The notes under the pieces are model-generated. The model was given only the letters and a program-made list of their open reading frames with translations, had not been told where the DNA came from and made no database searches. From Sipunculus nudus (taxonomy: Eukaryota; Annelida; Sipuncula; Golfingiida; Sipunculidae), in assembly GCA_026874595.1 (NCBI GenBank), contig CM049318.1, positions 11,575,241 to 11,639,240 of the forward strand: a stretch of 64,000 nt of DNA, read 5' to 3'. The position numbers and the translations under genes are program-made. The number at the start of each line of letters is the position of its first letter. Position 1 is the first letter of the stretch. This document shows positions 1-57,587 of the stretch, one piece after another.

Positions 1-1214
1 AAATCCCAATTTTGGGAGTCTTATAGGAAAAGCAATATCACAAGCAATCATGCAACGCAATTTTGTACTCAAAGCATTATAACCAATTCTTGTTAATAGG
101 AACTTCCAGGCCAAATGCTTTGACCTTTGCATGGTCACGACTGAACGTTGTTATGAAAGAATTTATTTTATTCGATCATTTCTAAGCATTTCTGTAATAC
201 ACCAGTTAAATCCGCAACTAAAAGGGATGGATTTAAAACTTGTTACAGCAACGATTAAAGTTATACATCCCGAAAGACATGACTAGAGTCACGGTGACTT
301 ATCTTCCTGATTGGCGACGAGGATGTTCTTCCGTGCACGGAACCTTGGGATCTGACTATTTCCGGTTCACCAGTAAACCCTTGGCGCAGTATCATGATTA
401 ATGGCACCAATTTCTCAAACTGGCATCGGGACCTCGGCTTTATCCACAATAAATCTGTCTGTCCGCCATATGTCAAACTGAATATCAGATATTTCACCAG
501 GATTTTCTGTTGGGACGACAACTTATCATTGTGTTTGTATCACGAAAGCTTTTATTCTACTCAGACAATTTATTGAGTACTCTATATCACTATACCGTTA
601 AAACCTTATTACATTGTAAATGTGTTTATGCATGTGATGAAAATACCCTATCATGTCCACATCATGTTATGAAAATTTTTATTAGTTATATTTCAAGGGA
701 AACAATAAAAGTACAGGGTAGGGATTAAAGGGCCTAATTTTCCACTAGGTAAAAAATTCCTACCATATACCTTATTTAAGAAAACAGAATTATTTGAAAA
801 TATGAGCAATCAGTCTACATTTTACAACATATCAAACCAACCTATGTCGTTGGTCACATGCAAACACAACCTCAGTTAACAGCTTCTGATCGGATGATGT
901 CGTGTAAACAGGCCAAGAAATATAGCCAGCTAAAACAAAGATGGCTCTATTCATGCATGGACACATCATTGTGAAGAGACTTAAAAGTTGTGAAACATAA
1001 AATTTGGGATTTATTGTAAATTCATGATTGCCACATTAGGTTGCCACTTCTAGGAAATTATTGTAAAATATAAACTTTGGAGAAAATAATCTAAAAAAAC
1101 CAGGTGGACACAGATTGGTGGAACGGACTAAAATATGTAGAATATATGTGATTTCTGGCTTTCTCTGAGTACATTTTCATGAACCGAAAGTAATTTCTTC
1201 TAAGAATGATTCTT

Positions 1215-1420
1215 ACAATGCTACCGTGACGGATGTACGACCTTGTTTGTTTGTTTTTTCAAGCTGTTAGTAAACATTGTACATGCGCTTAAAGCCGCCC
1301 ATGCTGACTAACAGAAAACCGATGTAATTAAAGGTGGTTGGCTGCATATTCGAAGAAACTAACACACCAACTGGACATCTGTTTCCTTACCTGCCAATGT
1401 GAATCCTTCAGTATGCGTGT
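1215..1420. repeat. Dispersed repeat F, copy 1
   Basis: This stretch shares a diverged block with 12285-12490 and 24125-24365. Common landmarks are 'gtgacggatg', 'caagctgtta', 'acatgcgc' and, in the other two copies, 'aaaacg(t/c)cattt' followed by a purine/C-rich end. It is an old interspersed element of unknown class. Copy boundaries are approximate. Confidence 0.4.
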
Positions 1421-2361
1421 ATCCTGGTCATCTTTACATGTAGACCAAGTCACCCCACTTAAACTTGTATCCGATTTTAGACCCCGGAACTGTTAATGCA
1501 TGTTTCGAAATAACTTCGTTCGTTCGATAAATCAAATGGTCGTGTGCAGGTATCTTGTAAGACGCGACCTGTACATCACAAATCGGCACGTTCCTATTTG
1601 TTCCTAATGAACGGATTTCCAGGACCTGATGATACCAATAGCAAATGTAAATATAAGACCAGCTCGACTTAAAGTAAATCCCACCGTGGAAGATAAACTT
1701 GATGTCTCTGTGCGAGGCTGCAGCTTAGGACGGCCCTCAGCCCTCAGGAAATTTCATCTTCTGTGACAAAAATCGATACCATGGCATCTGGCCACACACG
1801 TTCGACAACTTCAAACTGACGTTGCTATGTATACAAGGAATAAAATTGTTCTGCATCAATCAATCTCAGTGTGGACAACCAGTTTGTTCCGATTTCATCT
1901 GACTGATACAACAGGACCGGATGTGGCCCATTTTTTTGCAAAACATTATTATTATTATCGTTACACATGATACCTTCATATTTTGATCATATTACTAATA
2001 CCTAATCAAGTCTTTTACGCGCGACACTACTTTGCATGCACCTGTATGTTCTTATAATAAGTTATAGTCTGAAGAAAGAAGGCTTAGCCTGTATTCCGAA
2101 ACTTATTCGATCGGCCAGATTATGTGGAGAACTATCCAGGACGGGGGAACTATATGCGGAGTCGTATACATAACCGCCCAGACTGGGTGGAGAGAAGAAT
2201 CAAGACTGTATTTAGAAATCCAAAGGCTTCCATAGCACGAAGCTGGAACACGCCCGGGCCCTTCTGTTGAAACGTTTTCGTCAATGTTTCTATGGCTACT
2301 AGGCTATGATCATCCCAGTTACACAAAGTGGGAAGAAACTCAAACAGAAAGCTTTAAAATT

Positions 2362-5840: not shown

Positions 5841-6184
5841 GAGGCCGCACAGCCGCACATACAAAGCGGGGTAGGCGAAATAAGACACGGTTTACATCTG
5901 ATTCGCAGGACGTTTTCTACTAGAATATATTAATAACTAAATAATAATCTGCACTGCTGAATATTAGACAGAAACGTTTGCACATGCACGGTCCGCTGTA
6001 TCCTTGGACTTCGTAGTGCTGGTAATCGGGGTTTGTGCATGACACACGGTGGGTGTAATTTTTCTGCATGTGTTTGAATATCGTATGAACAGCTATGAAT
6101 ATGGTATGACCTGCAGAGAACCAAAAGGAGATGATGTTATCAATTGTCCTGTGAAGCGCCCTATAGGACTGGAGCACAGACAAA

Positions 6185-6289
6185 ATGGGTGAGACTAAAC
6201 AACAAATGGAGTATGTGTTTTTGAGCAGAAACTGTGGCCTTAAAGTATCCAACCTCTGCCTGGGCACAGTCACATTTGGTGAATGGGAG
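6185..6289 (+). CDS. Aldo-keto reductase exon 1 (residues 1-35)
   Basis: Starts at ATG (MGETKQQM...) and encodes the first strand of the family, [10 protein letters not shown] at its end, which corresponds to the LG(T/L)xTFG motif of aldo-keto reductases. It ends in phase 0 at a strong donor, GAG|gtgagc. No in-frame upstream Met with better context is apparent. Confidence 0.88.
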
Positions 6290-9200
6290 GTGAGCACACG
6301 TTAAGATAAGATTCTTTTTACGCGGTAGCGACCGCGGTACGGTCGCGGTTGCGGATAGAGTCGAAAATATGAAATTATGAAGGACTGATTCCTTTTATTC
6401 GGTTGCGGTCACGGTACTTATCCGACATGTCATCCGACAAAGTTTTTGTCGTATCATCTAGCGACTGATCCTACAAAAAAACTTTAAACAGATGGGGTCG
6501 GAGGAGGAAACCCACTGAATTGTATACGTCACATAGGGGTTTCTCCAGGAATATAACTTGATTATCAGTATATGCCATGAGGAAAACGTTTTACCCTTGA
6601 AAGCATCGATTTAAATTATTGTGAATATGGGAAACATTTGTCTTTCATTCACTGTTGAGTGGCTGGTTTCCTATCTTTTACTACAATTTTCAAAATGCAG
6701 GGATATATATATCATCTTTGGACGAGACAAGTGAATATAAGCTGTGGTTTGTGAGTGTTCTGCTTACAAAATAGGCTAATTTGATTATTGGATTATTTTT
6801 ATACCTTGAGCCCTGTATGCTAATAAGACTCCATGTACCAATGTTAATAAAGACACCAGAATAATGTGGCCCGTTGCTCCTAATATTTTAATATTCATGA
6901 ATATTCATGACGATCTGTTCGCGTGACCTCTCGTGTGTTTATGTCAGATTCCATACCTTGTGGTAAATATTAAAATAAGAGCTAAGTGGAGGCGGCTATT
7001 TAAGTACGATGATTGAAAAGTTGTTTTAAACTTTATTTAGAGGGAACCGCATTTAGTTAGTGGCAAGGTTGATTAGACAGGTTATCGGGGAATGAGCCCA
7101 GGGCTGCTTGTATTATCCCTCAAACGGTGAATACATTGTTTTAAGTGCTTGTTGTCGCAAAAGATTTTTATAAGGTTTTCCTATTATTTTCTTTAGATTT
7201 TTTTTGAGAATAATAGTGTCTTGTCCTGCTAAACGGGGAACATTTTCCACTATATCGGCATTATTGCTTGGCTAGCATGCGCTGGTTGGCTTTTAGGGTC
7301 ATAAGCATAACTCAGGGAAATGGTTCCGTGTTTAAATTCTTTCATTTTGGTATATTTATAGATACAAGTTATTAATATGGCAAGGCATTTTCGGTTTACA
7401 TTACAATAACGTATATCCCGATTTTTTGCAATTATTTCCTTTAAAAAAAACATTCTCAGAGGTCAAAATATTACAAAATTGTGATGTCAACTTTTCTAAA
7501 AGTTTGTTTGCAGTTTTTTTTAAAATACAATCGATACGAATCCTGCAAAAGTGAGAGGTTTTATACACCAAAGAGGTACCACCCTATATTCTCTCGATTG
7601 CGATTTTTGCTTTTTTTTTTTTTTTTTTAATATATTTCCATAAGAAACTATGTCAATTTGTCGCAGCGGGAAGTCATAGAAAACCTTATCCACAATTCCG
7701 GTATTTGAACAACAATGCTTGTTGTCAACAATGAGCAGCTTCGTAGTAAATGCTAATTCGACCAATTTCCTATAAAAATTGGTACGTCAGGGTTTATAAG
7801 AGCTGGTTGTGATATCCTTTTATATTTCTTCACTCTAGTTCTTTGAGGGACAGAGCAATGAGGAGAAAGCACACCAGATCCTTGACAGATTCGTTGAACA
7901 TGGAGGTAACTTCATTGACACTGCAAACACATACTCTCATGGAAAATCTGAAGAATATATTGGAACTTGGCTTCAGAAACGGTAGATTTCAATGTTTTAC
8001 TGATGAATGGTTTCAGCTTATCCATGTAATGTATTTAAGTTTGTTTTAACCTAATAGTTTCATCGGTGGTAACAGATCAATTCAAAACATTATCAAGTCC
8101 TGTCTTACTTGTTTTACGAAAGAAAAAAATACAAAAAAATGAGACGGTGTGAAATACCTCCTTCCTTATCTGCCGGATTATTTCTTATGAGAAAAAAGAG
8201 GGCGTCACTCTGACTTTACGCGATGACAGTCGTCGAGACTACGCCACCTCGGGGTGCTTCGTGATTGTTTTTATTAAATTCATACATGTGCTTCCGTTCT
8301 TTTCATGCAGAAAAACGGGCTTCATCGTGTAAAATCATAGTGTGAATTTCTCGAGTACTATCAAAGAAACGTCATGATGTAAAAAGCTCCTTTCTGTTCC
8401 GATATTTAAGTTGAAATGGAAATAGTTTGTTTAATTTCTGAATACGTTAAACGTACCTCATTCCCCAAAACTGAAAGAATGATAATTTGTAGGGTAGAGG
8501 AAAACGTGCTTCCGTTGATTTCCGATATTTAAGTTTATATGGAAATAGTTTGTTTAATTTCTGAATACGGTAAACGTACCTCATTCTTATGCAGAAAAAC
8601 GGGGTTCATCCAGTTAAATCATAGTGTGAATTTCTCCAGCACTATCAAAGAAACGTCATGATGTAAAAAGCTCTTTTCTGTTCCGATATTTAAGTTGATA
8701 TGGAAATAGTTTGTTTTATTTCTGAATACGTTAAATGTACCTCATTCCCCAAAACTAGAAGAATGATGATTTGTTGGGTAGAAGAACACGTGCTTCCGTT
8801 GATTTCAGATATTTAAGTTTACATGGAAATAGTTTGTTTAATTTCTGATTTCGTTAAACGTACCTCATTCCCCAAAACTAAAAGAATGATAATTTGTTGG
8901 GTAGAGGAACACGTGCTTCCGTGGAAATTTCGATATTTAAGTTGATATAGAAACAGTTTGTTTGATTTCTGAATACGTTAAACGTACCTCATTCCCAAAA
9001 ACTAGAAGAATGATAATTTGTTCGGTAGAGGAACACGTGCTTTCGTTGCTTTAAACCAAAGAGTAGGGTTCATCGTGTAGCTGTAATCAGTACTATCCAC
9101 GTAACGTTATACGGAATAACACCCCTTTTGTGTAGAGTTTTAAGCAAAATTAGCATGGAAATAGCATGTTTTAATTCTTCATACGGTAAACGTACTTCTC

Positions 9201-12200
9201 TGTCTGAAACTACAAGAATTTGATTTTTAGGGAGAAGAATATAAAATAGTTCTGTCACAGGTGACGCATATATCAGCATGACTTTAAATTTGTCACTGAC
9301 CAATGTATATATGTAATCTGTCGACCTTCTGGTGTCCTCAAGGGAATATTGGTCACTCTAAGACCTTTTGACATAAAGGCAAGGATCCATATTCTAGAAT
9401 AATTTGGTGTTTGTGCGGAGAGAGTTCTGATCTTATCGAATTTCGGAATATCTGCTCTCTGTGTGCTGATCAGTATTATTGTGTTTCATCTAGGCAAAAC
9501 AGAGACAAAATGGTGATCGCCACCAAATGCGGTGGTCGGATGGACCCAGACAACCCAAACGGAGAAGGACTGAGCAGGAAACACATCCTACAGGAAGTCG
9601 AGGCCAGTCTGAGACGACTACAGACAAATTACATTGATCTGTACCAGGTAATGTAATGATACATGTATAACAAATAAACACAGGAAGCACATTCTGCAGG
9701 AAGTCGAGGCAAGTCTGAAACGACTACAGACAGATTACATTGATCTGTACCAGGTAATGTAATGGTACATGTATAACAAATAAACACAGGAAGCACATTC
9801 TGCAGGAAGTCGAGGCCAGTCTGAGACGACTACAGACAGATTACATTGATCTGTATCAGGTAACGTGATGGTACATGTATAAAAAAAATAAACACAGGAA
9901 GCACATTCTGCAGGAAGTCGAGGCCAGTCTGAGACGACTACAGACAAATTACATTGATCTGTACCAGGTAATGTAATGATACATGTATAACAAATAAACA
10001 CAGGAAGCACATTCTGCAGGAAGTCGAGGCAAGTCTGAAACGACTACAGACAGATTACATTGATCTGTACCAGGTAATGTAATGGTACATGTATAACAAA
10101 TAAACACAGGAAGCACATTCTGCAGGAAGTCGAGGCCAGTCTGAGACGACTACAGACAGATTACATTGATCTGTATCAGGTAACGTGATGGTACATGTAT
10201 AAATAATAAACACAGGAAGCACATTCTGCAGAAAGTTCAGGCAAGTCTGAGACGACTACAGACAGATTACATTGATCTGTACCAGGTAATGTAATGGTAC
10301 ATGTATAACAAATAAACACAGAAAGCACATTCTGCAGAAAGTCGAGGCCAGTCTGAGATGACTACAGACAGATTACATTGATCTGTACCAGGTAATGTAA
10401 CGGTACATGTATAACAAATAAACACAGAAAGCACATTCTGCAGGAATTTAAGGCCAGTCTGAGACGACTACAGACAGATTACATTGATCTGTACCAGGTA
10501 ATGTAATGGTACATGTATAACAAATAAACACAGAAAGCACATTCTGCAGGAAGTCGCGGCCAGTCTGAGACGACTACAGACAGATTACATTGATCTGTAT
10601 CAGGTAACGTGATGGTACATGTATAAACAATAAACACAGGAAGCACATTCTGCAGGAAGTTCAGGCCAGTCTGAGACGACTACAGACAGATTACATTGAT
10701 CTGTACCAGGTAATGTAATGATACATGTATAACAAATAAACACAGGAAGCACATTCTGCAGGAAGTCGAGGGCAGTCTGAGACGACCAAACGGAGAAGGA
10801 CTGAGCAGGAAACACATCCTACAGGAAGTCGAGGCCAGTCTGAGACGACTACAGACAGATTACATTGATCTGTACCAGGTAATGTAATGGTACATGTATA
10901 ACAAATAAACACAGGAAGCACATTCTGCAGGAAGTCGAGGCCAGTCTGAGACGACTACAGACAGATTACATTGATCTGTACCAGGTAATGTAATGGTACA
11001 TGTATAACAAATAAACACAGGAAGCACATTCTGTAGGAAGTCGAGGCCAGTCTGAGACGACTACAGACAGATTTCATTGATCTGTACCAGGTAATGTAAT
11101 GGTACATGTATAACAAATAAACACAGGAAGCACATTCTGCAGGAAGTTCAGGCCAGTCTGAGACGACTACAGACAGATTACATTGATCTGTACCAGGTAA
11201 TGTAATGGTACATGTATAACAAATAAACACAGGAAGCACTTTCTGCAGGAAGTTCAGGCCAGTCTGAGACGACTACAGACAGATTACATTGATCTGTACC
11301 AGGTAATGTAATGATACATGTATAACAAATAAACACAGGAAGCACATTCTGCAGGAAGTCGAGGGCAGTCTGAGACGACCAAACGGAGAAGGACTGAGCA
11401 GGAAACACATCCTACAGGAAGTCGAGGCCAGTCTGAGACGACTACAGACAGATAACATTGATCTGTACCAGGTAATGTAATGGTACATGTATAACAAATA
11501 AACACAGGAAGCACATTCTGCAGGAAGTCGAGGCCAGTCTGAGACGACTACAGACAGATTACATTGATCTGTACCAGGTAATGTAATGGTACATGTATAA
11601 CAAATAAACACAGGAAGCACATTCTGCAGGAAGTTCAGGCCAGTCTGAGACGACTACAGACAGATTACATTGATCTGTACCAGGTAGTGTAATGGTACAT
11701 GTAAAACAAATAAACACAGGAAGCACATTCTGCAAGAAGTTCAGGCCAGTCTTAGACGACTTCAGACAGATTACATTGATCTGTACCAGGTAATGTAATG
11801 GTACATGTATAATAAATAAACACAGGAAGCACATTCTGCAGGAAGTTCAGGCCAATCTGAGACGACTACAGACAGATTACATTGATCTGTACCAGGTAAT
11901 GTAATGGTACATGTATAACAAATAAACACAGGAAGCACATTCTGCAGGAAGTCGAGGCCAGTCTGAGACGACTACAGACAGATTACATTGATCTGTATCA
12001 GGTAACGTGATGGTACATGTATAAACAATAAACACAGGAAGCACATTCTGCAGGAAGTTCAGGCCAGTCTGAGACGACCATAGACAGATTACATTGATCT
12101 GTACCAGGTAGTGTAATGGTTCATGTATAACAAATAAACACAGGAAGCACATTCTGCAGGAAGTCGAGGCCAGTCTGAGACGACTACAATTATATGTTGA

Positions 12201-15196
12201 TAGTAACTATTCACCTACCTTTTGAAAAAGAATATTTGTGATTTTTGGTTACCTTATTGCATATCTTGAAGGATGTATGAACGTGTTTATCAGCAACATG
12301 TTTGTAAGCAAAGCAGTGTTGATACACGAGAAAAACACGTAATCTAAGGTTGTAGGTTGCATATATGCGGGAGTAGAAAGGTCACTTGTTGGAAAACGTC
12401 ATTTACAAAGTTCTGGCTTATCTGACTTACTGCCAGATGCCCTGGTTGAATTTATATTGTTTATTCAGGCGGGCCCCCACATATTGTAAACACGTTGACA
12501 AAAACAAAGCAAGCAGCCTGCCTGCGATGATATCCACGTGTTCTGGTCTATTTTTATCAAAGCTCCAAGGGATTACCTTTAGTTTATAGACGTCAGATAG
12601 ATGATTGGGCCCCTTTTAATTTGATCTGTACCAGTTGAGTACTGTTTCAATGAACGTAGTAAAATGACCCAGATTCATACTCATGGAAACAAAAGGTACA
12701 ATACAGTAAACGAAGATGATTTAAGTAAGGTAATTTCTGGATATCAGTACTTGATTATACAACATATTAAGAAGTAGGTGCTGCAGATGTTAGTTGGTCC
12801 TAATATGTGTGCAAGGGTTTGCAAACATGAACATTCCTTCGCTTCAAATATACAACGAAATTTAGTGCTTATATATCATGACTGATTTTGTTAGCACTTA
12901 TTTGTTGAGTGTAGACAATCATGTCAGTTTTTTATCCCATGGAGGTTATAGTTCCATATATTTTCGTTTTAAATAATTTTTTAATAGTTTGTCAACAATT
13001 GGAAAAAGCATTTTTATATTTTGAATTATCAATCCGTTGCTGTATGAATCCATATTTCTCTTAGAGATAATTTAAATAATTGTAGGATTGAAATATATGA
13101 TTTAAATCTAAATATTTATATTCATGTATCTCTCTAAACCTCAGAAGTTATTTTTTATAATACCATAGCCTTAGATATCATATAATACACGTGCACCGAG
13201 CCGTTCACTCTGATTCTAATTTTCTTAATATCCAACAGATCCACTTCTGGGACGATGGTACGCCGTTGGAAGAGGTTTTGACGACAATGGATGGTTTGGT
13301 CCATGAAGGGAAGGTCCGCTATGTCGGAGCCTCAAACCTGGCTGGCTGGCAACTACAGAAGATCGTAGACTTGAATCATTATCTAGGTTTTAACCCATGT
13401 ATCACTTTACAGGTATTGACCGGATCCTTATACATTAATACTATAAGACAAAAGTATGGAAGATTTAAAGTTCTAACAATTCGATTAATTGATGATAAGT
13501 CACCAAAAGTCACGTTTCAGGTATCACTATTCATCTGTCGTAGGAAGCAATAGATGCATTTTGTTCTGAACATGAAACGCGTGACCGCATTTTCTCTTTC
13601 GACAAATCAAATCCAAAAGTATGTTCGAGTATTTTTACTCTTTACCTTTTATTCATCAAATCGGGCCATTTTACTCCTTATTGGTGACATATTCTTACAG
13701 CAGGAGTATAACCTTGTCGAACGGGCTGGAGAAATTGAAGCGTTTAAAGTCTGCAAGATAGAAGGAATAGGAATTCTTCCTTGGTCACCCCTGAGAAGGT
13801 TAGTGATGAAACAGTTTCATTTCTTCACGCCCAGCCCTTGGCACAACATCTTCTATAAGTTATTATTGTTATTTTTATTAATACTATTATTTTAAATCTT
13901 TGGTCTTTTGCCTGTATAGTATTTAGTGTTGGGTACCGCCTACAATTTTCATATTGCATTATATTGCAATATTCGATAATGTATTGCGAAACGTATCGCG
14001 GCAGTTTTTCATGTTATCCATGTATAGACAAAATATGTGTTACCCGCGATATATTTAACAAATTAAATATTTTGTTAATTCATTATCTTGCTACATATAA
14101 TGACACAAGAAAAGTATGCAGATCAGTTTATTTCACAGAAGAAATATGACAAAGTTACTCAGTGAACTGTTTACTGATGGCAACTTTAAGAAACATTTCA
14201 AAAAAGCTTTAAAATATGTTTCATAACGCCTTAATTACATGTGCAAGTATACCTTGGCAATGAGAGAATTTTGGACTAGGTTTCGCAAGGTGATTATAAT
14301 GTGGTATTCACAGTCACAGTCGTGTACCAAATCAGTCTTTGGGATGGAACGTTAATCATTTCGTCTATCAAGGCAACTCATAATAATCGGCCTGAGTAGG
14401 GTCTGTAGACAGGGTAGCGCGACTTTCATTTCCAACCTTCCACTAAAATTTACCCATTTAGATGACTAAGTGGTTAATTTCAGTCGCGTGTGATAACATA
14501 TCATATATGATAAAAAAAGGTGTCGATATATGAAAATTATATTGCGGTATGCAATATGCGAATCACAGTGTAGTCGAGCGTGCTGGTGTCACGGTTAGGC
14601 GCTGTATTTGTGACAGCAAGGTTGTAGGTTCGGGTCCCGTTCTGACCGCCGTCTGCGCTAAGACTCTTGGCCAAAGTCTTTAACACGAGGTTGCTCTCTC
14701 CACCCCGGAGTGAGAGGTACTGTTCATTGGAGGATAGCAAATGTAGAACGATTAACCGTCTAGTGCCTGATATGTGGGCTGTATGCTCCCAAGGGAGCCG
14801 TGGGAAGGTACAAGAACGAACAGGCTCGAAAGAACAAGACGAAGAGTACTGACATCGTCGTATCAGACTATAAACCCCCACCTTCATCTTTTGTATCGCG
14901 GTATAGAGATATATCGATGATAACCCACTCACTACTTTTTATTTGGCTTCGCTATCATAAAGGGACCCTGACCGCATGTTTTGTATAACCAAACGAGACT
15001 TGGAAAAACTAGATAAAAACGCAACATGGAGAACAATAAACAGACTATCATTTGAATACCGCCTTGCTACTTTGAACAGTGGTAGCAACTTGGTTTACCT
15101 CTAGATTTTTGACAATATTCGATATGTAATCTATTAGCTCGCCGAAACAAAGTATCAGCAGAGATTATACCGTACCTCTGACAACGTCCTTAGGCC

Positions 15197-21200: not shown

Positions 21201-24200
21201 AACGCTGCCGTTCCAACATGCGTTTTTCCTGCTTTGCTTTGAGAAGCTCATGAGTGTACCACTGTGTATTTGGTCTCACATATGAGGCCTTTGTTTGCTG
21301 GGAGGCATATATATCAAGCAGTAGTGCGAGGCTGGTATTGTACAAGTCAACTAGGACCTCGAAACTAGTCTCTGAAGACAGCGATGCATCGGACATACAT
21401 TGGGCGAGGTCTCCACCGAACTCCTTGACAGGAATGCCTTTGTCCTTCCTGAAAGTAACAAGCTTTTCTGTCTTGGGTGGTCTTGCAATATGAATGGTAA
21501 CGTGAATGGCCATTTGATCACTTAAACCAGGGTCGGTGACACGCGGAGGATTCACAAGGAGTGGGTCAGTCTTCTGAGTAATAACAACATCAAGTAGGTG
21601 GCCTCTGTCATGAGTAGGGTCACAGACACTTTGTACCAGACCATGTGATTCAATAAGACTCATAAACTGTGCTGTACCAGGGTCACTAACATTTTCCCTT
21701 ACATATACACTTATAGCTTTATGGGTATAATATAAACCATGGAGATATTATAATAATGCCTGATGTAACTAAATAATATATCCAACTCTCAAAAGATAAC
21801 TGCCAGTCTCGACAAGGCATGTTTTCAAACATGTGTCGTTATCCCTCTCTCGCAGTTAGTCTGTGTCGTTTTTTGTTCTTAAAATATGAATTATTCATAT
21901 AATTTTAGCGGCCTCTTGACCGGTAAATACAAGAAAGGACAAGATCCACCAGAGGGCACCAGGTACAATTATTTTATGAAGAAGAAATGGCACTTCGGAG
22001 AAGCATGTACAAAGAGGCTTCAAACCGAACGAGTATGGAAGATTGTAGACATGGTGGAAGAGATTTCTGAGCAAACCGGTGAGAATAAATTGTGCCGTTC
22101 ACGTATCATGCATTTAATATAGTTATTGCTTCGATTCAGTTAAAACAAATTTCGCCTTCTTTTTCAACATGCAAGTCATGAATGTTGATTTTCCAACGGA
22201 TAACTTGCAATAGAAATCATTTTTCAATCATGCAAATGGTAATAATAGCTCTAAATCACATTTGAAACAGCATATTTACGTAATATTCACCATTAAGTTA
22301 TTGCAATATTAACTGAAATAAAAGTGCTCGTTTAAATGTGATTACAAAAAAACTAACGATTATTTAACCACGCGTATATTTATTTTCATTTATTAATATT
22401 TAATCTTATTTATTTTTTAACATGATATCTTAAATGGGTTACAGAAAGATGAGTCCTCATCCAAGGACATTTTATTTTTGGTTCAGTTTAAGCTCAGCTG
22501 ACTGAAAATCATCTGAGCTATACCGATCCATCTCTACATCCGGGGAGGTCCTAGGCAAATCTCCTTGGAAACCTGAAATTAGGTCATGGTGACCTATATT
22601 CTGTGACCTATGGGCTGAAAAATGGTTTTGAGCACCCAGACAGTTAGACGAGACACAAAATGTATCTATTAGGCGTAGAATCTTCTAACATAACATTCAG
22701 GGAGGTCCTAGACAAATGTCCTAGGAAACCTAAAATTAGGTCATGGTGATCTATATATTCTGCAACCTATTGGAAAAAGATGTCATATGAGCATCTTGAA
22801 TGTCAGATGAGCACAAATTGTGTCTGTTAAGTCCAGATTATTCTCACACAAAAGCCAGGTAGGTTCTAGGAAAATCTTTTTGCAAAGCAGATATTATATC
22901 ATGGTGCATAGGCTATAGTCTATGCGCTATGAGCCAAAATTTATTAATTTGAGCCTCCTGACAGACAAGATACAAATTGTGATTTATTTTCCTTTGAACC
23001 TTAATTAATTATATTGAAAAGTCCAGGAAGGTCATTGGCAAGTCTTTGAAAACTGAACTTAGGTAACTTAATTCATATAACACATGTCAAGTATAGTCAG
23101 TTAGGGCACATATTGTATCCTTAAACCCTAAAATCTTCCAACACTGCATCCAGCGAGATCTTGGCAAATCCCACTTGAACATGAGTTGAGTACCTTTAAC
23201 GTCATATGGATAAAATGTATGCATTAGGCTTAGGTCCTAGGAAAATCTCCTTTGAAATTTAAAATAAGGTCATGGTGACATATTCTGCAAGCTACTGTCC
23301 TGAAGCATGATTTTAAATAGTGAGACAGGGCATGAATTGTATCCATTAACCCTTGACTCATCTAAAATGACATCCAGGGTCCTTGGCAATTCTCTTTGGA
23401 AACCAGATATTCGGTCATGGTGACCTATATTCTGCAAGCGATTTACAAGAATAATGATTTTGAGTACCAAGACAGACAGGTTAAAAATTTGTATCCATTT
23501 TCTTGGAACCCTCTTTTGTGAAATCCAGGGGGTCCTGGGCAGGTCTCCTATGAATCCTAAAATTTTTATTTTCTGTTCATTTTTCAACATAGTAACATTT
23601 GCCATCGACTATGCTCACAGACAATATATAACATTAATAAAAGAAATAAGCACCCATTTAATTTAGCTGAGCGTTATGGCCCATGGGCCACTTGTTTTAT
23701 TTGTTATGCTCCATTCATTTTTAATCATTCATTTAAGGCAAGAAACCCTGCCAGGTGGCGCTGCGCTGGTTGCTGCAGAAACCGGTGGTGACGTCAGTGA
23801 TCATCGGCGCCAGAACTCTCGATCAGTTGGATCAGAATGTAGGGGCCGCATCAGGATGGGAACTTTCCAAAGAACAGGTGAAAATAACACGGAAATGTTC
23901 GTCTGGTAGGAACTGCCACGTTACAACAAGTGTAACAAAGAATACCGTAATCCACTTGTTAATACCTCTGTCTGTTTAAGTAAGTGTGTTTGTTCGTAAC
24001 AGTAAATCCCTAGAAGTTATAGTCAGCATTTCACATGTACAAATTATATTATTTCTCGCCATACTGCACGCTAATATTAATTAAGTGTAGGTAATACCTG
24101 TTAAAATATATCATTACGCCTCATCTCTCACGCCTCATCTGTGACGGATGCATGGGCCTGTTTTTATACAAGCTGTTATAACACGGTACATGCGCCAATA

Positions 24201-25039
24201 TCGGCAAACAGAAAAAAAAATCATATTACTTAAGATGGTTAGATATGTGCGAAAATTGCAAAACGCCATTTGTAAAACTCTGGTTGGTCTGACTTAAAAC
24301 CTGATATTCTTGATTTATGTGTTTGCATTATTTTGGTAAACCCCCCCCCCCTTCATGCACTCACACACGCACACACGTTACAATCATGGATATATATGAA
24401 ACCAAAGGCATCTTCGGAAGGCATGAAATCGATTTTTTCTGCCTACCTTTAAAAAAATGGACTATGTTTAGTTGAAAAACTTTAAAAACTGGAATACACA
24501 CCTTTAAGAATGGGTTTTTGGAAAAACTAGGTCATGAGGGACTGAGAAGGTTAATTAATAATGGAGTACCTTATCTTGTTTGCCCATGTGCTCATCGTTA
24601 ACCATACAATATAAGAGAATAAATGGTAAGTTATATTTCAGCCCTGTTTGGGGCAGAAGGGTTCAAGTATTTGGTAACAATGGCGGAGGAATGCGCTCTC
24701 TTTAAATGGTCTCGTCGAAGGCGTGACATAAGTTATTCCAATATAATTTTTCTGTCATAATACATGCTTGCACTCAATTTTTAATTTAATTATTTTCAAC
24801 AAATGCTTCATTTTGGTGTTGTTATCCCTTACACCGACAAAATAACTACACAAATATGCCGTTCTCGTAGCGATTCTTGAGAGTTAATTTTCATCAATAT
24901 CTTCAGATGATTTTATTATTAATTATATTTACAGATGGATAAACTTGAGGAGGCAGCCGAATTTGACATGGGCGAATTTTACTCCGTAATGCGCTCTCTA
25001 CAAAAGAACCGAATCGGAGAGCTCCAGGGAGAATACTGA
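6185..25039 (+). CDS. Aldo-keto reductase, YajO-like, 8 coding exons, 362 aa
   Basis: Joined exons 6185-6289, 7839-7981, 9494-9647, 13239-13412, 13701-13798, 21909-22078, 23738-23877 and 24935-25039 total 1089 nt. All introns are GT..AG and every phase matches. The protein should be a cytosolic NADPH-dependent (beta/alpha)8-barrel oxidoreductase that reduces aldehydes or ketones; its substrate is unknown. The catalytic tetrad is visible: Asp62 and Tyr67 (in FIDTANTY), Lys94 (in IATKCGG) and His136 (in YQIHFWD). Other family landmarks are [10 protein letters not shown] (158-167), LPWSPLR, GLLTGKY and the cofactor-end motif IIGAR (303-307). Family members are about 330-350 aa, so length is normal. 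The C-terminus after LEEAA does not resemble the usual ending. The start has a purine at -3 (aaaATGG). Introns are rich in repeats, and intron 3 carries the exon-derived array. Animal homologues are often auto-named '1-deoxyxylulose-5-phosphate synthase YajO-like', which says little about real function. Confidence 0.93.
6290..7838 (+). other. Intron 1 of the reductase
   Basis: No coding content seen. A short patch at about 6330-6357 and 6400-6418 is unusually rich in CpG, with repeated 'cggt(t/c)gcggt'-like words and the palindrome ACCGCGGT, just after the first exon. It could be a downstream promoter element or a degraded repeat. The rest is AT-rich and unremarkable. Confidence 0.6.
7839..7981 (+). 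CDS. Aldo-keto reductase exon 2 (residues 36-83)
   Basis: Acceptor cactctag|TTC. The exon encodes [13 protein letters not shown] through WLQKR. It contains two of the four catalytic residues, Asp62 and Tyr67, in [11 protein letters not shown], followed by the family's SEEYIG motif. It ends after two bases of the Arg83 codon at AAACG|gtagat, and exon 3 supplies the missing G. Confidence 0.92.
8270..9205. repeat. Tandem repeat, about 123 bp period, intron 2
   Basis: The phrase 'aacgtacctcattc' recurs at 8450, 8573, 8735 (as aatgtacc), 8857 and 8981, giving spacings near 123, 161, 123 and 124 bp. A weaker copy lies near 9190. Each unit also contains 'gatatttaagttgatatgg', 'aatagtttgttt' and 'gtgcttccgttg'. 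Units differ by a few percent plus one 38-bp insertion. The block is noncoding and is separate from the exon-derived array in the next intron. Confidence 0.85.
9494..9647 (+). CDS. Aldo-keto reductase exon 3 (end of residue 83 to 134)
   Basis: Acceptor catctag|GC. The exon encodes [14 protein letters not shown] (catalytic Lys94), then [18 protein letters not shown] and TNYIDLYQ, ending in phase 0 at CAG|gtaatg. The family usually has TDYIDLYQ here; this exon has Asn128, while most downstream array copies keep Asp. The last 69 bases are the template of the intron 3 array. If splicing at 9648 failed, translation would add Val-Met and stop at a TAA in the intron. Confidence 0.93.
9579..12189 (+). 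repeat. Tandem array of exon 3 end, donor and intron start, 106-bp unit
   Basis: Units begin with the AAG/AAA of Lys112 at 9579 (true exon), 9685, 9791, 9899, 10005, 10111, 10217, 10323, 10429, 10535, 10641, 10747, 10810, 10916, 11022, 11128, 11234, 11340, 11403, 11509, 11615, 11721, 11827, 11933, 12039 and 12145. There are 25 copies after the exon. A typical unit is 69 nt of coding-derived sequence ([14 protein letters not shown]...DLYQ), a donor CAG|gtaatg or gtaacg, and a 36-nt spacer with a branch-like tataac, a perfect AATAAA and a terminal cacag. Units at 10747 and 11340 are only 63 bp and jump into a second copy of exon sequence around Pro104-Lys112. The last copy is cut at about 12188. 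Higher-order periods are about 318 bp (9579/9899) and exactly 593 bp (10747/11340). Long open frames on the minus strand here are an artefact of the period. Confidence 0.97.
12285..12490. repeat. Dispersed repeat F, copy 2
   Basis: Shares 'aaaacgtcatttacaaa', 'tctgactta' and a purine/C-rich end with 24258-24350, and more weakly with 1215-1420. It lies just downstream of the array in intron 3. The rest of the intron to 13238 is AT-rich and shows no gene or repeat that I recognise. Confidence 0.4.
13239..13412 (+). CDS. Aldo-keto reductase exon 4 (residues 135-192)
   Basis: Acceptor tccaacag|ATC. It encodes [14 protein letters not shown], where His136 is the fourth catalytic residue, then the [10 protein letters not shown] strand and LAGWQLQK helix, ending CITLQ|gtattg in phase 0. 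The catalytic His sits two codons into the exon, so any mis-splicing caused by the intron 3 array would remove it. Confidence 0.93.
13701..13798 (+). CDS. Aldo-keto reductase exon 5 (residues 193-225)
   Basis: Acceptor attcttacag|CAG. It encodes [15 protein letters not shown] and [13 protein letters not shown], matching the family's Q-YNL...E...LGV(I/L)PWSPL segment. It ends after two bases of codon 225 at AGAAG|gttagt. Confidence 0.9.
13925..14540. repeat. Dispersed repeat E, copy 1
   Basis: The opening 'accgcctacaattttcatattgc' region with self-complementary TATTGC/GCAATA words matches 25627-25661. Later blocks ('gagttactca'-like, and a 'ttcatttccaaccttccac'-like end) match 25785-25945. 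It is probably a decayed DNA transposon or similar element of unknown class. The SINE at 14565 sits at or near its right side. Confidence 0.4.
14565..14880 (+). mobile_element. tRNA-derived SINE
   Basis: A tRNA-like head carries a box A-like stretch around 14570-14583 (tagtcgagcgtgc) and a near-perfect box B, GGTTCGGGTCC, at 14627-14637. These are the two internal RNA polymerase III promoter elements at a tRNA-like spacing of about 45 bp. A body of about 240 bp without coding potential follows. It does not fold as a functional tRNA (no clean acceptor stem or anticodon), so it is a SINE rather than a tRNA gene. The exact end and target duplications are not resolved. Confidence 0.7.
15196..15254. 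repeat. (TA)n-rich microsatellite
   Basis: Alternating TA with two 'ttta' interruptions, read directly. Intron 5 of the reductase. Confidence 0.95.
15590..16525 (-). pseudogene. Degraded non-LTR retrotransposon reverse transcriptase
   Basis: On the minus strand the sequence reads as a reverse transcriptase remnant. It shows LQDASKAFD (the F-D-x-x-x-A-F-D type motif), a finger/palm segment with [15 protein letters not shown] in place of the usual NGVRQGxxLSP, and further downstream an I-A-D-D where the family has F/Y-A-D-D. A C-terminal thumb-like region runs to about 15590. Several stops and frame changes make it inactive. The endonuclease half is not visible upstream. It lies within intron 5, antisense to the reductase. 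Confidence 0.75.
16560..17060. repeat. Two-copy tandem repeat, about 340 bp
   Basis: The segment starting 'ataatttggggatctaaggtcaagg' (16579) recurs in diverged form at about 16930 ('ataatttaagggttaaaggtcatgg'), followed in both by 'tcacaggcc', 'ttgttcat'/'atgttcat', 'ggttaa' and 'ggctca'. Intronic and noncoding. It resembles the internal repeats of the larger tandem-repeat elements elsewhere in the window. Confidence 0.6.
17083..17572 (-). mobile_element. 5'-truncated LINE 3' end (twin of 18957-19443)
   Basis: Nearly identical over its length to 18957-19443, the 3' tail of the longer LINE. Both run from 'tatttttaagaggaaacctga' through a (ATT)n-rich patch to 'tatgccaactggaaaaggtgtg'. This copy then stops matching, whereas the other continues into reverse transcriptase sequence. 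This is the usual signature of 5' truncation on target-primed insertion. It is noncoding. Confidence 0.8.
17573..18956. other. Intron 5 stretch between two LINE copies, nothing recognised
   Basis: No coding exon or named repeat is seen. It contains repeated 'gacctga'/'gtgacctga' words near 18370-18400 and an ATGCAAAT-like octamer near 18437. Because it is bracketed by two direct copies of the same LINE tail it could be mistaken for the body of an LTR element, but it has no gag or pol coding sequence. Confidence 0.5.
18957..21663 (-). pseudogene. Degraded CR1/L2-like LINE (endonuclease end, RT and 3' tail)
   Basis: Reading the minus strand from 21663: an endonuclease C-terminus ([15 protein letters not shown]..., then SDQMAIHV in place of the usual SDH), the linker, an RT start ([23 protein letters not shown]), [10 protein letters not shown] and AAFDTLDH, then [10 protein letters not shown] and YANDTQSY, a degraded Y/F-A-D-D-T box, and a C-terminal region ending near 19450. 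A noncoding tail follows to 18957. Several frame changes and stops break it. The motif order and wording fit the CR1/L2 group of the jockey superfamily. It lies in intron 5, antisense to the reductase, with its 5' end missing. Confidence 0.85.
21909..22078 (+). CDS. Aldo-keto reductase exon 6 (residues 225-282)
   Basis: Acceptor aattttag|C. The first base completes Ser225, then [18 protein letters not shown] and a helix region ending VEEISEQTG, matching the family segment GG(L/W)L(S/T)GKY...PP. It ends after one base of Gly282 at ACCG|gtgaga. Confidence 0.92.
22471..23699 (+). mobile_element. Tandem-repeat element B, copy 1, ending in GGCCCATGGGCC
   Basis: About 1.2 kb made of roughly six to seven diverged units of 150-190 bp, each with 'aggtcctaggcaaatct', 'aggtcatggtgacctatattctg' and 'gacag' words. 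It ends at the right in CTGAGCGTTATG and then the perfect 12-bp palindrome GGCCCATGGGCC (23678-23689), followed by ACTTGTTTT. The same terminal motif recurs inverted at about 26535 and 63165. A GC-rich terminal hairpin with a short T-rich tail plus internal tandem repeats is the layout of non-autonomous Helitron/Helentron-type elements, so I infer that class. It ends only 38 bp before exon 7. Confidence 0.6.
23738..23877 (+). CDS. Aldo-keto reductase exon 7 (residues 282-328)
   Basis: Acceptor catttaag|GC. It encodes [15 protein letters not shown] and [18 protein letters not shown], the family's QVALRW helix and the IIGAR(T/K) cofactor-binding region, ending at GAACAG|gtgaaa in phase 0. Confidence 0.93.
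24125..24365. repeat. Dispersed repeat F, copy 3
   Basis: Matches 1215-1420 ('gtgacggatg...caagctgtta...acatgcgc') and 12390-12480 ('aaaacgccattt...tctgactta'). It ends in a C10 run at about 24342. Intron 7. Confidence 0.45.
24935..25039 (+). CDS. Aldo-keto reductase exon 8, C-terminus (residues 329-362)
   Basis: Acceptor atttacag|ATG. It encodes [10 protein letters not shown] through LQGEY and the TGA stop. The opening fits the family's M-x-x-L-(D/E)-E-A-S/A. The rest is not the usual C-terminal tail with Pro-Tyr-Pro, so the substrate-facing C-terminal end may be divergent. A different last exon cannot be excluded. Confidence 0.85.
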   Translation: MDKLEEAAEFDMGEFYSVMRSLQKNRIGELQGEY

Positions 25040-26533: not shown

Positions 26534-27930
26534 AAAACAAGTGACCCATGGGTCATGACGCTCAGCTGACTGGGAAGAGATTCGCAAAAGGAAATTTTAT
26601 CATCTGAATGGTAGTATATACCCATTCAACTGAAGCATCAAACAGATTAACCAACAGGCCAAGATTGTGTCTGTATTTATATATCTCAAAAATAGAGAAA
26701 AAATGCAGGTGGCTCCACCAGTCTGCAGACACTAATAAAAAGACTTAATGGTCAATATGCATGCAAAGAATCATGGTGATCTCTGAATTAGTTGTTCAGA
26801 TACTTCAGCTTTTGTATCAAATTTTCCATTATTCTGAGGGATACTTCGGAGTCCAATAGCTTGAAGGATATGGGTAATAGAGACCTAATTTCAGGTTTCC
26901 ACAGACACTATTCAGGGGTCTCCCTGTGGGTCAAGAATGAAGATTCTAGGTCCAGTCGTTACGATTTGTACCCTGTTGACAGATAACCACATCTTTAAAA
27001 GGTCTCAAAAAAGAAAAAAGTTCGTAAAAATTTATAAACATAGAGGTGGCGCACCCAGTCTGCAGAAACTGATGGAACACCTCATGATAAATATGTATGC
27101 CAAAAATCATGACCATCAGTGTTGTAGTTATTGAGATGTTGCAGTTTTTTTATCAAATTTTTCATTATTCTGGGGGGTAATTGGGAGCCCCACAGCTCAA
27201 AGGATATGGGTAACAGAGACCTAATTTCAGGTTTCCGTGGAGACTTTTCATGGGTCTCCCTATGTGTAAAGAATGAAGATTCTAGGTCCAGTCTTTACGA
27301 TTTGTGCCCTGTTAACAGATGTTTACATTTTTAAAGGTCTAAAAATAGAGAAAACAATTCGTAAAAATCGAAAAATACAGGTGGCGCCACCAGTCTGCCA
27401 AAAACTGATGAAACATCTCATGATCAATATGTATGCCAAAAATCATGACCATCAGTGATGTAATTAATGAGATATTGAAGTTTTTGTATGAAATTTTTGA
27501 CTATTCTGGGGGGTACTTTGGGGCCACATAGCTCGAAGGATTTGGGTAACAGAGACCTAATTTCTGGTTTCCATGGAGACTTTCCATAGGTCTCTCACTG
27601 TCGCAAGAATGAAGATTCTAGGTCCAGTCTTAACGATTTGTGCCCTGTTAACAGATGTTCACATTTTTAAAGGTCCCAAAAATAGAGAAAAAAGTCGTAA
27701 AAATCGAAAAATAAAGGTGGCGCCAATAGTCTGCAGGAACTGATGGAAAATCTCATGATCAATATGTATGCCAAAATTATGACCATCAGTGATGTAGTTA
27801 ACGAGATATTGAAATTTTTGTATGAAATTTTTTACTAATCTGGGGGGTACTTTTGGGCCAAATAGCTCAACGGATATGGGTAACAGAGACCTAATTTCTG
27901 GTTTCCAAGAAGATTTTTAATCGACCTCTC
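26534..27930 (-). mobile_element. Tandem-repeat element B, copy 2, about 337-bp units
   Basis: The left end carries AACAAGTGACCCATGGGTCA followed by 'tgacgctcagctgac', the reverse of the terminus of copy 1. TGACCCATGGGTCA (26542-26555) is a perfect 14-bp palindrome. The body has four units with about 337-bp spacing: 'ccagtctgc' recurs near 26720, 27055, 27390 and 27730. Each has 'aggtggc(g/t)c', 'gatgaagattctaggtccag', 'acagagacctaatttc' and 'tctggggggtac'. Open frames of 60-100 codons inside repeat the same noncoding sequence and are not genes. A Helitron-like non-autonomous class is inferred from the terminal hairpin. Confidence 0.6.
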
Positions 27931-29561: not shown

Positions 29562-31112
29562 TTAGTCCTCTTCGCTCCTAGAGGAGCATAGGGCCTCAAC
29601 AGCAACCTTCCACTGTCTTCTGTCCCTGGCACAGGTCTTGGCCTCCTCCCATGTCAGTCCGGAGTCTCTCAGCTCACTGTGCAAGCTTCTCCTCCAGGTC
29701 TGCTTGGGGCGCCCCCTTCTCCTCTTCCCCTGCGGGTTCCACTCGAGCGCTTGCCTGGTGATGTTGCAGGGCTCCTTCCGCAAAGTATGGCCGACCCATC
29801 GCCACTTTCGCCGCCTAACTTGAACGTCAATAGGCTGTTGCTTCGCCCTCGTCCACAGGTCGGTCTTTGGCACCTTGTCGAACCATCGGAGGTGGAGGAT
29901 CTGCCGGAGACAGCTATAGATGAAGGTCTGGACCTTTGCAAAGCTGGTTTTGGTGACCCGCAAAGTCTCTGATCCATAAATAAGCACAGACTTCACATTG
30001 AAGTTGAAGATCCTCAGCTTGGTGTCGGTGGAGATGCTGGTTGCTCTCCATACAGGCTTCAAAATGGCAAATACTTGGCGTGCTTTCTTCACTCTTGCCT
30101 TGATGTCATCATCTGTGCCTCCTGTCTGGCTGATTTTGCTGCCCAGGTACACAAACTCACTGATATCCTCTACTGCTCTCCCCGAGATGGTGACTGGGGC
30201 CTCTTGCTGGTTGTTGGTGCGCAGTAGCTTGGTTTTCTCTTGACTGATCTTGAGGCCAACTCCCTGAGCTGTGTTTTCTAAGGTGGTGACTTTCTCTTGC
30301 ATATCCTGCAGGCGATGGGATAGCAGTGCCAGGTCATCGGCGAACTCAAGATCTTCCAGCTTCGTTGTAAGGGTCCACTGGATGCCTTTCCCGGAACTTG
30401 CGTAAGCCGTCCTTGTCACCGGGTCCAGTCCCACGAGGAAGAGGAATGGAGACAGAAGGCAACCCTGTCTGACGCCGGAAGAGACCTCAAAGTCGTCAGA
30501 GGGTCTACCACCATGGACCACCTGGCACGAAAATCCTTCATAGAGTCGTCTGATGATGTCGACGAACTTTGGTGGCACATCGTAGTGGAGAAGGATATTC
30601 CAGATTGCTTGCCTGTCCACGCTGTCAAAAGCCTTCTCGAAATCGATGAAGCAGGCGTAGAGAGGGGACTGCCACTCTATGGACTGCTCCACGATGACTC
30701 TGAGGGTCGCAATTTGGTCAGTGCAGGAACGTTCTTTCCTGAAGCCAGCTTGTTCATCTCAAAGTTTCTTGTCGGGGGCATCTTTCATACGGTCTAGGAT
30801 GACCCTTGTGAAGATTTTGCTGGGGATGGGCAACAGGGTGATGCCTCGCCACTTGCCGCACTGGGAGAGGTCGCCTTGCTTTGGGAGTTTCACTAGAAGG
30901 CCCTTCTTCCACTCGGTTGGCATCTGTTCTGTCGTCCAGATCAGGTTGAGCAGGTGGTGTAGCTGGTCAACAGTGTCACTTCCCCCTTCCTTCAAGGCAT
31001 CAGCAGGGGTGTTGTCGATGCCAGCAGCCTTACCATTCTTCAAGGTGTTGAGTGTCTTGCGGATCTCTGCCTTGGTGATCTCTCCAATGTTAATGTCCAG
31101 AGGGTCACCCAA
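29562..31112 (-). pseudogene. RTE reverse transcriptase, interrupted by one TGA
   Basis: The sequence 31112-30759 carries the RT N-terminal part (TKAEIRKTLNTLKNGKAAG, LPKQGDLSQCGKWRGITLL, SKIFTRVILDRM). A TGA stands where the family has Arg before DEQAGFRKERSCTDQ, consistent with CGA to TGA decay. The same frame then continues through LYACFIDFEKAFDSVD, SSGVRQGCLLSP, FADDLALL (FADD at residues 117-120 counted from the Met at 30692) and YLGSKIS, with a zinc-knuckle-free basic C-terminus ending SRSEED. Reverse transcriptase copies the element's RNA at a nicked target site. This copy cannot make the full protein without readthrough. Confidence 0.9.
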
Positions 31113-31359
31113 CTGTAGTTGAGGTCGTTCATCTGTAGGTGGTCTATTCAGTACATCCTGGAAATGCTCCTTCCACCTTGCTAGCTGGTCTTCGATGGTT
31201 GTGAGCAGCTTCCCTTATTGTCTCTGACTGGTCTGTTTGGGTTGCTGCATCTCCCACTGAGGAGTCTGGTGGTGGCGTACAAGGTTTTGAGGTCTCCCTT
31301 GCAGGCTGCTTCCTCTGCCTCCTGTGCAATGGTATTGATATAAGCTCGCTTGTCAGCTA

Positions 31360-32694
31360 TTATCTCCTTCTTGACTTCTCAAATGTGGAGTGCCTGTTTG
31401 CTGCCCGCTTTTTCTGCTGCCGGGTCTTAGCCTGGTTTAGTCCCTGCTTAGCTTTCCTTCTCTCCTCCACTTTCTGCCAAGTCTCATCACTGATCCATGG
31501 CTTCCTGTTTGTCTGTGGTCGTCCCAACACATCTTCACAAGCTCCAACAACGGCTTCTTTGAAGTTGGCCCATCTGTTCTCCACTGTTTCTATCTCTTCT
31601 GTCTGAAGAGCTTGGAAGCGGTTGTGGAGAGAGATCTGAAATGCCTTTTTTGTGTCCTGTTGTTTCAGTTTCCTGACATTGAACTTTCTCCTTGGGTTGT
31701 GGTGTTTATTTCGTGCAGACAGTCGCATCTTGATCTTGGTGACAACGAGGTGATGGTCTGATCCTATGTCTGCGCCACGTCTGACTCTCACATCCTGTAG
31801 GGAGCTCCGGTAGCGTTGCTTCACCATGATGTGGTCTATCTGGTTCTCTGTTTGGTGATCAGGGGAGACCCAAGTAACTTTGTGACAATGCTTGTGTGGA
31901 GAAAGCGTGCCTCCAATTACAAGGCTGTTAGTGGTGCAGAAGTCAGCCAGCATCTCTCCATTCTCGTTCATTTCACCAAGTCCATGTCGTCCCATCTCCC
32001 GCTCTCTGTCGGTGCTGTCAGTCCCAACCTTGGCATTCATATCCCCCATCAGGATGAGCATGTCCCGTCTTGGAATCTTGTCCAACACTGACTGAAGCTG
32101 GGCGTAGAAGTTTTCCTTGTCTTCCTCCTCTGCAACGTTGGTGGAGGCGTAGCACATGACTAGAGACACCTTCTGGAAGCGGTACTCGAACCGTGCGGTG
32201 ATGACGCGGTCTGACACAGGCTCCCATTCCAGTAGGCTCTTTGCTGCTTGCTCGGACAGAAGGAGGCCAACTCCAGCTTCACGTCGGTCGTCTTCATTCC
32301 TGCCAGAGTAGAGCAGTGTCTCTCCATTCTGTAGTTTGGTCTCTCCATGTCCATTCCAACGGACTTCGCACATGCCCAGAAGTGTGAGGTTGTATCTGTG
32401 CATCTCCTTCACCACTTGTGCACATCGTCCGGTCTCCCAAAGTGTCCTCACATTCCACGTTCCTAGTAGGACAGGTCTATGTGATAACAGTCTCGGGGAC
32501 TTCATCAAGGGTGTCTCTGGTCGAAGAGGGGTCGTCGGCTCTGCAGCTTCCTGACGGGTTTGGCTGCAGCGCGTCATAATTCTCCTGGGTGGAGCCCCAG
32601 ATCTCCCAAAAACTAAATGAGTGCAAGTTTTGCTGTTGATGGTTTCTGTAACTAAGGTCTTTTTCTGTGTGAGGGTAGTTAACCCATCGCACAA
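31360..32694 (-). CDS. RTE endonuclease domain, 444-aa open frame
   Basis: An exonuclease-endonuclease-phosphatase fold domain that nicks the target DNA. Motifs by residue from the first Met: TWNVRTL (Asn81), CEVRWNG (Glu110), GDMNAKVG (Asp218, Asn220), QIDHIM (Asp287) and GSDHHLV (Asp313, His314), which are the expected metal-binding and catalytic residues. Animal annotation often mislabels this as 'craniofacial development protein 2-like'. The frame ends in a basic stretch at 31360, and the path into the RT is broken by a stop and a frame change. The true start could be a later Met such as residue 40. Confidence 0.9.
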   Translation of the reverse strand: MCDGLTTLTQKKTLVTETINSKTCTHLVFGRSGAPPRRIMTRCSQTRQEAAEPTTPLRPETPLMKSPRLLSHRPVLLGTWNVRTLWETGRCAQVVKEMHRYNLTLLGMCEVRWNGHGETKLQNGETLLYSGRNEDDRREAGVGLLLSEQAAKSLLEWEPVSDRVITARFEYRFQKVSLVMCYASTNVAEEEDKENFYAQLQSVLDKIPRRDMLILMGDMNAKVGTDSTDREREMGRHGLGEMNENGEMLADFCTTNSLVIGGTLSPHKHCHKVTWVSPDHQTENQIDHIMVKQRYRSSLQDVRVRRGADIGSDHHLVVTKIKMRLSARNKHHNPRRKFNVRKLKQQDTKKAFQISLHNRFQALQTEEIETVENRWANFKEAVVGACEDVLGRPQTNRKPWISDETWQKVEERRKAKQGLNQAKTRQQKKRAANRHSTFEKSRRR

Positions 32695-32863
32695 CCCCAG
32701 CCTGGAGGACCAGGGTGTATCGTTTCGTCTGGCTTATACCCCACAGATGTGTTGAGCCTGGTTGAACCTGCCAGGGGCCGAAGCCCCTGCCCACATAGCT
32801 CTGGGGGTCATTGGAACACACAAGCCGTCCTACCACGTCAAGGTGATACACCAACGGGACGGT

Positions 32864-53950: not shown

Positions 53951-54129
53951 AGACGGTCGTGAGGGTGACGTAGACGTGTCGCGGTAGGCTCGAGAATGGG
54001 GGGGGACGAAAAATCGAACAGATCAAATTCCGGACGCCCCAGACAAGCGAAAATACTCCGAACAACCGGGAGCGGAAGGAGCACCGGCGGAGGAGGAGAC
54101 GCAGGGCGTCAGGAAAGGGCGTCGGCAAG

Positions 54130-57515: not shown

Positions 57516-57587
57516 ACTCGACCGTTCAAACCAAACAGTGGACGAATCTCGCAGCGCGGGATCACACGTCCATCATGGCTGACGCCA

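Follow-up and report, generated by a model that had tools for sequence, protein, structure and literature searches.

How a splice donor is chosen when nearly the same donor follows it 22 times, and whether such copies serve any end of their own, are the questions raised by an aldo/keto reductase (AKR) gene of Sipunculus nudus. The gene lies on the forward strand of the analyzed window, a stretch of 64,000 nucleotides from contig CM049318.1 (assembly GCA_026874595.1) in whose numbering unprefixed coordinates are given here. Tandem repeat detection with TRF placed an array with a period of 106 bp and 24.5 copies at 9575–12188 on the forward strand (85% matches, 5% indels, score 2324), far beyond what would occur by chance. 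The array begins inside exon 3 (9494–9647) and overlaps its boundary with intron 3, such that each unit consists of the last 70 nt of the exon (23 codons and one nucleotide, 9578–9647 in the live exon, the parent unit of the array) and 36 nt of the intron. This composition had been proposed in a preliminary description of the locus and was confirmed. The same description counted 25 amplifications of the exon end, of which the 106-bp repeat with 22 complete decoys stands, but not the count, as TRF gives 24.5 copies and some of these are partial.

A search of the array region for the pattern TGTA[CT]CAGGTA identified 23 sites, consisting of the live donor (GT at 9648–9649) and 22 decoys, and the spliceosome is thus confronted with 23 near-identical donors. 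The decoy region (9684–12143, forward strand) contains the 22 complete units, each with CAG/GTA (the slash marks the exon-intron boundary), and two partial copies (10746–10788 and 11339–11381), while a further partial unit (12144–12190) terminates the array. All 22 complete decoys retain CAG/GT, 16 of the 22 have an 11-mer identical to that of the live site, and over the 20 nt flanking on both sides the decoys show between zero and four mismatches apiece to that site. The near-identity of the decoy donors, and their number, were therefore as initially described.

The gene that surrounds the array also looks otherwise intact, as initially described. Eight exon blocks, all on the forward strand and extending from 6185 to ~25036, align without stops to the paralog at C1:50.004 (loci L009 and L010), and the joined exons 3–5 match the aldo/keto reductase family PF00248 (E = 9.7e-35). 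The coding part of exon 1 (6185–6289, ends read from the sequence) has 35 codons and the donor GAG/GTGAGC, and the region around it (6158–6302) has 95.9% DNA identity with the same paralog. Exon 2 (7839–7981; acceptor CTCTAG/, donor AACG/GTAG) was placed by protein matches in several paralogs, with the ends taken from the sequence, and precedes an intron of ~1.5 kb, exon 3 and an intron 3 of ~3.6 kb, as measured by coordinates. Downstream of the array are exon 4 (13239–13412), exon 5 (13701–13798, donor AAG/GTTAGT) and, with approximate ends, the blocks for exons 6 (21907–22080), 7 (23740–23880) and 8 (24935–25036). Between the window gene and the C1:50.004 paralog, dN/dS is 0.40 (dS 0.173, Fisher P = 6e-5) over the eight exon blocks, the ends of which are approximate and the first of which extends two codons upstream of the ATG and nine bases into the intron. 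Compared with the copy at C1:80.119, dN/dS is 0.224 over exons 2–5 (dS 0.436, P = 1e-9). Both values indicate that the gene was under purifying selection while the array was present. It should be noted that intron 2 has another tandem array (284 and 123 bp; 8305–9052) just upstream of exon 3, which as far as seen is not exon-derived and is mostly missing from L009 in the intron alignment.

A difference in donor strength is unsupported as the selector in the window. Predicted pairing with the 5′ end of U1 amounts to −9.4 kcal/mol for the live type, −9.1 kcal/mol for four decoys and −10.0 kcal/mol for two decoys. Combined with the identical 11-mers, this means that the live site does not stand out by the strength of its sequence. 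The live donor GTAATGTAA (9648–9656) is followed by an in-frame stop at the third codon of the intron, and so every later donor adds a stop and truncates the frame; the frame effect was determined for the first three of the 22 window decoys, and the stop lies upstream of all 22. Thus the first donor must serve, and the constraint on the gene requires that this live site is used at a sufficient rate.

The choice of the first donor is favored by the stop directly after the live donor and, by analogy, by published minigenes. In the minigenes of Carranza et al. 2022 (PMC9225289) that had two identical strong donors and were spliced under exon definition, the upstream donor was used exclusively. 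Exons between introns >250 nt, a class to which introns 2 and 3 of the window gene belong, favored the upstream of two near-equal donors in that study. The same paper states that ~60% of all alternative 5′ site events prefer the downstream site, that the classical intron-centered rule also favors the downstream donor, and that larger-exon constructs skipped the exon when donors were weakened. The minigenes and the window gene share identical donors downstream of one exon flanked by introns of this length class, though the former have two designed donors and the latter 23 natural ones. If the comparison holds, exon 3, situated between long introns, would be defined across the exon and its acceptor would pair with the nearest donor, the live one, while any transcripts made from later donors would hold the stop codon and probably be degraded. 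Near-identical donors compete, however, and frequent use of downstream donors could be tolerated, with a fraction of the transcripts lost to decay and the arrangement persisting as a mild burden that drifted up in copy number. Judged by the dN/dS of 0.40 for the two closest copies, constraint would be moderate and not strong, in keeping with such leakage. Nonetheless, this alternative is unlikely given the exclusive use of the upstream donor in the paired-donor minigenes and the constraint still visible on the gene.

The array is not restricted to the window gene. Homologous units also follow exon 3 in a further four AKR copies (L009, L011, L012 and L013), each of which is located on contig C1, and because these arrays occupy the same junction the possibility of a unique young satellite was rejected. 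The initial impression of a satellite belonging to one gene is not borne out on this ground, nor in view of three further AKR paralogs with arrays at other exon edges (see below). While the window copy on contig C13 has 22 complete decoys, there are eight in L009, five in L011, five in L012 (one partial) and three in L013, so copy number differs between duplicated paralogs; L014 has no decoys beside exon 3. L011 and L012 are degenerate copies, and in the latter exon 3 was found without its 5′ part. The junction at which position +36 of the intron meets the exon (AAACACAG/GAARCACATTC) is identical in the window copy, L009, L011 and L012, and is 9 bp shorter in L013, which results in a 97-bp unit. 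The 9-bp deletion is common to the L013 decoys (L013:4668–5059), a small case of homogenization within an array.

The relationship is closest between the window gene and L009, the introns of which are collinear on both flanks of the array (9194–10514 at 79% and 12678–15170 at 76%). In a tree of the 47 of 51 units with at least 70 letters, the terminal L009 unit is nested in the clade of window units (96/90), and this terminal unit is identical to the terminal partial unit of the window array (12144–12190, forward strand) at 43 of 47 positions. Together these observations indicate that the unit types predate the split between the two genes and that the window array is related, in expanded form, to an array in a C1 paralog. 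A single origin of the array across the AKR copies is weakly supported by a gene tree consistent with one origin (58/77; 56% of bootstraps), which comprised 19 gene copies, four of them with arrays, and excluded the array copy C1:80.050, for which no full exon 3 was found, and, from the copies that lack this particular array, C2:64.7, C8:47.84, C8:79.48, C9:14.6, C9:37.60 and C13:54.4. A search of the same genome with one unit returned at least 49 matches, and eight first-look candidates were scored. Beyond the five arrays, the unit matches among these occurred at three exon-only places (C1:80.164, C13:54.4 and C8:47.8), and the same array was not found elsewhere among the eight.

The older arrays on C1 provide a means of asking if the decoys are maintained. 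Across their 21 decoys, GT positions have changed in 5 of 42 cases (0.119) compared with 0.135 over all columns (Fisher P = 1), and 52 of 103 neighboring column pairs are at least as conserved as the GT. The number of old decoys that keep GT (16 of 21) is close to the ~15.7 predicted by independent decay, (1 − 0.135)^2, and rates of change are alike across the three codon positions (0.163, 0.124 and 0.155). Selection on the decoy donors is thus unsupported, as within this genome the splice sites of the 21 old decoys are not conserved beyond their surroundings. GT is retained in 10 of 11 decoys of intact genes and in 6 of 10 in pseudogene copies, a difference that lies in the direction of constraint but involves too few decoys to separate the two groups. 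In the window array none of the 44 GT positions have changed (expected ~1.4, P = 0.24), while variation is greater at third than at second codon positions (26 of 571 compared with 10 of 549). These patterns fit young copies re-seeded from the exon and do not by themselves imply neutrality. Taken as a whole, no selection on the decoys is detectable from these comparisons.

These results bear directly on the potential for the array to act as a set of functional decoys or poison sites, in which the 22 donors would draw in U1 snRNP, or mini-exons would arise from the 70-nt AG...GT units, and retained or stop-bearing transcripts would tune AKR output. Several features are in keeping with such a role, including the CAG/GT kept by every complete decoy, a predicted U1 pairing about equal to that of the live site, the AG with which every unit ends, the shift of frame into stops that would follow the inclusion of one 70-nt unit as an exon, and the recurrence of donor arrays at another exon in two paralogs. 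Conversely, the old decoys lack any excess conservation of GT or of codon positions, the AG at the unit end is not preceded by a pyrimidine tract, and intact paralogs differ in array length, with anything between 3 and 22 complete decoys. Additionally, introns are rarely as short as the 36-nt spacer. A regulatory role of this type is consequently quite improbable, and no function of the array's own is detectable. The array is best read as an old exon-boundary minisatellite that is probably neutral.

The internal order of the window array offers some indication of how such a minisatellite may have grown. Units 1–3, which start at the live exon end, recur as units 4–6 with the same private variants. 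The two partial copies within the decoy region each precede a unit with ~20 nt of additional exon 3 and together with it form 169-bp irregular units on the forward strand (10746–10914 and 11339–11507), the second located 593 bp downstream of the first. Each consists of a 43-nt partial copy followed by the longer exon 3 stretch, and both contain the exon-type bases AAACACATCCTACAG, from which most decoys depart at three synonymous positions. The recurrence of the live-end units and of the exon-type bases implies that exchanges took in the live exon end and added fresh copies. At the distal end, an insertion of ~430 bp separates the terminal partial unit from TTGATCTGTACCAG (12621–12634, forward strand), the probable remainder of that unit, after which there is no donor.

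From these patterns a history can be proposed. An ancestral AKR segment, from the interior of exon 3 to nucleotide 36 of intron 3, would have been tandemly duplicated, as the common junction suggests. The array was passed on to five or more gene copies during the duplication of the family and decayed in them with no sign of constraint on the decoys. In the window gene it may then have expanded through the duplication of one or several units at once, sometimes taking in the live exon end and re-seeding the array with fresh donors, before the insertion split the last unit. The locus is likely explained by an inherited, decaying minisatellite of the intron, expanded in the window gene, with a unit that happens to include the donor of exon 3, and by splicing through the nearest donor. 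The array is known from one assembly, and a collapsed or stuttered short repeat could in principle produce an array of this kind, yet such an artefact would have to account for the ordered variants, the match of units 1–3 to units 4–6, the irregular unit that recurs 593 bp later, the diverged arrays at the same place in four paralogs, and flanks that are collinear with a paralog, and is extremely unlikely. Exon-edge minisatellites can evidently outlast gene duplication and leave the host gene in place.

When 93 exon matches (redundant between overlapping loci) were compared with themselves, another three edge arrays emerged in AKR paralogs. In L044 (C9:37.71 Mb), a 66-bp unit is present 10.4 times at the exon 4 donor (L044:1657–2346), providing the live site and nine decoys. 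Two of the nine (GTGAGT and GTAAGA) seem to resemble the donor consensus more than the live GTGAGA does, a point that would favor tolerated use of downstream donors. In L045 (C9:37.60 Mb, 1172–1553, minus strand), a 61-bp unit is present 6.3 times at the exon 4 donor, with the live site and four intact decoys; further copies occur near 770–880. L025 (C8:79.48 Mb, 1501–2012, minus strand) is the mirror case, where a 169-bp unit containing the exon 4 acceptor and most of exon 4 is present 2.8 times, such that two decoy acceptors lie upstream and the live acceptor is the 3′-most of three. These three and the exon 3 array differ in their units and junctions and are therefore counted as four independent occurrences.

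For every decoy tested in L044, L045 and L025, splicing at that site shifts the frame or introduces a stop. The live site is in each array the copy closest to the opposite end of its exon, which is the acceptor end for the donor arrays and the donor end for the acceptor array; a live site at any other position of the array would be expected to break the frame. The genome thus contains a graded series in related genes, with decoy numbers of 22, 8 and 3 for exon 3 and of 9 and 4 for exon 4, in which the sequence of some decoys equals or betters that of the live site, and which is joined by the duplicated acceptors. Choice among equal donors has so far been tested by paired sites in minigenes and by transcriptome statistics, and the series constitutes a natural test of the exon-definition rule far beyond the published range. 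The interest of the locus lies in this test of donor choice and not in a new mechanism.

The recurrence of edge arrays in one family (three separate donor arrays and one acceptor array) could be cited for the view that they are maintained as platforms for splice-site decoys, where donor amplification would be favored because extra U1-binding sites tune AKR output and the live exon re-seeds the donors. The frequency of edge arrays gives a measure of how unusual this recurrence is. TRF arrays with a period of at least 30 number 26 across 162 kb of AKR loci (74 distinct exons). Of these, 7 overlap an exon edge, while a uniform placement null gives a mean of 6.43 (sd 1.99, P = 0.47), a crude null as some blocks were chosen for the array, which biases the sample toward edges, and as arrays are allowed to cover whole exons. 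The edge arrays therefore look like the expected fraction in a genome rich in intronic tandem repeats, and a special amplification hotspot at exon edges is unsupported. Maintenance as decoy platforms is very unlikely.

Tandem copies of exon sequence inside a gene are also found in the mutually exclusive exon arrays of Dscam, where the copies are reportedly alternative exons that encode protein isoforms. The copies in the window are instead 70-nt exon fragments that have no convincing acceptor and are decaying, and several of the old decoys hold stop codons in the exon frame; they do not form a mutually exclusive exon array. Human tandem arrays are said, in the title of a 2007 PNAS article by Zhuo et al., to give rise to new alternatively spliced introns. 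There, as here, tandem arrays and splice sites are located in the same gene region, but no new intron is evident in the window gene. The position of intron 3, with its donor after LYQ, is common to paralogs that lack the array, among them L015, L016, L036 and L037, and the intron does not qualify as a new one formed from duplicated exon sequence with the protein unchanged.

The preliminary description knew of no satellite built in this way from a live exon-intron boundary, but the kind has been reported before. According to De Grassi and Ciccarelli 2009 (PMC2812944), segmentally duplicated human genes have internal tandem repeats at exon-intron boundaries. Both the human repeats and the AKR arrays are minisatellite units over such a boundary with a copy number that varies between recently duplicated paralogs. 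The human repeats change exons or make novel introns with transcript support, whereas in the window the exon and its frame are untouched and the copies are older, intronic decoys, up to 22 of them complete. Further, tandem duplication of AGGT-bearing exon sequence is an established source of introns (the Rogers model; PMC4974935 and PMC2891723). As in the window, tandem duplication in that model multiplies splice signals and a stop codon exposes unspliced forms to decay. The two cases differ in that exonic sequence becomes a new intron in the model, while in the window the duplicated material is a donor that was already there, along with the first part of its intron, and the copies lie within that same intron. 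No report of a donor-bearing intronic array of this size was found in the open-access library searched, with most subscription journals outside that scope.

Several observations concern other parts of the genome and of the window. The repertoires of sulfotransferases (>150 matches) and P450s (95 matches) are very large, with long single-exon copies in both. A look for edge arrays in the P450s saw no close pair of same-range matches among the 95, a weak test as 92 of 1022 candidates were scored and many are intronless. All 19 SDR matches are located on small contigs (C61–C90) and have open frames. Intronless SDR genes are present on C61, C62, C64–C69, C72, C75, C89 and C90, with near-identical copies on several contigs, and in L065 an SDR gene lies beside fatty-acid synthesis genes. 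The SDR-bearing small contigs are probably bacterial, from a symbiont or a contaminant. An SDR from a bacterial-looking contig had no close relative among the genome contigs searched (at best 53% identity). Within the window, long open frames on the minus strand (29562–32733 and 52787–57572) read as a LINE-like element, with endonuclease and reverse transcriptase, and another retroelement. Three additional window arrays with units of ~220–340 bp (26699–27918, 43956–44868 and 50216–51300) all contain a GGTGGCRCCACC-like motif and are perhaps one dispersed repeat family.
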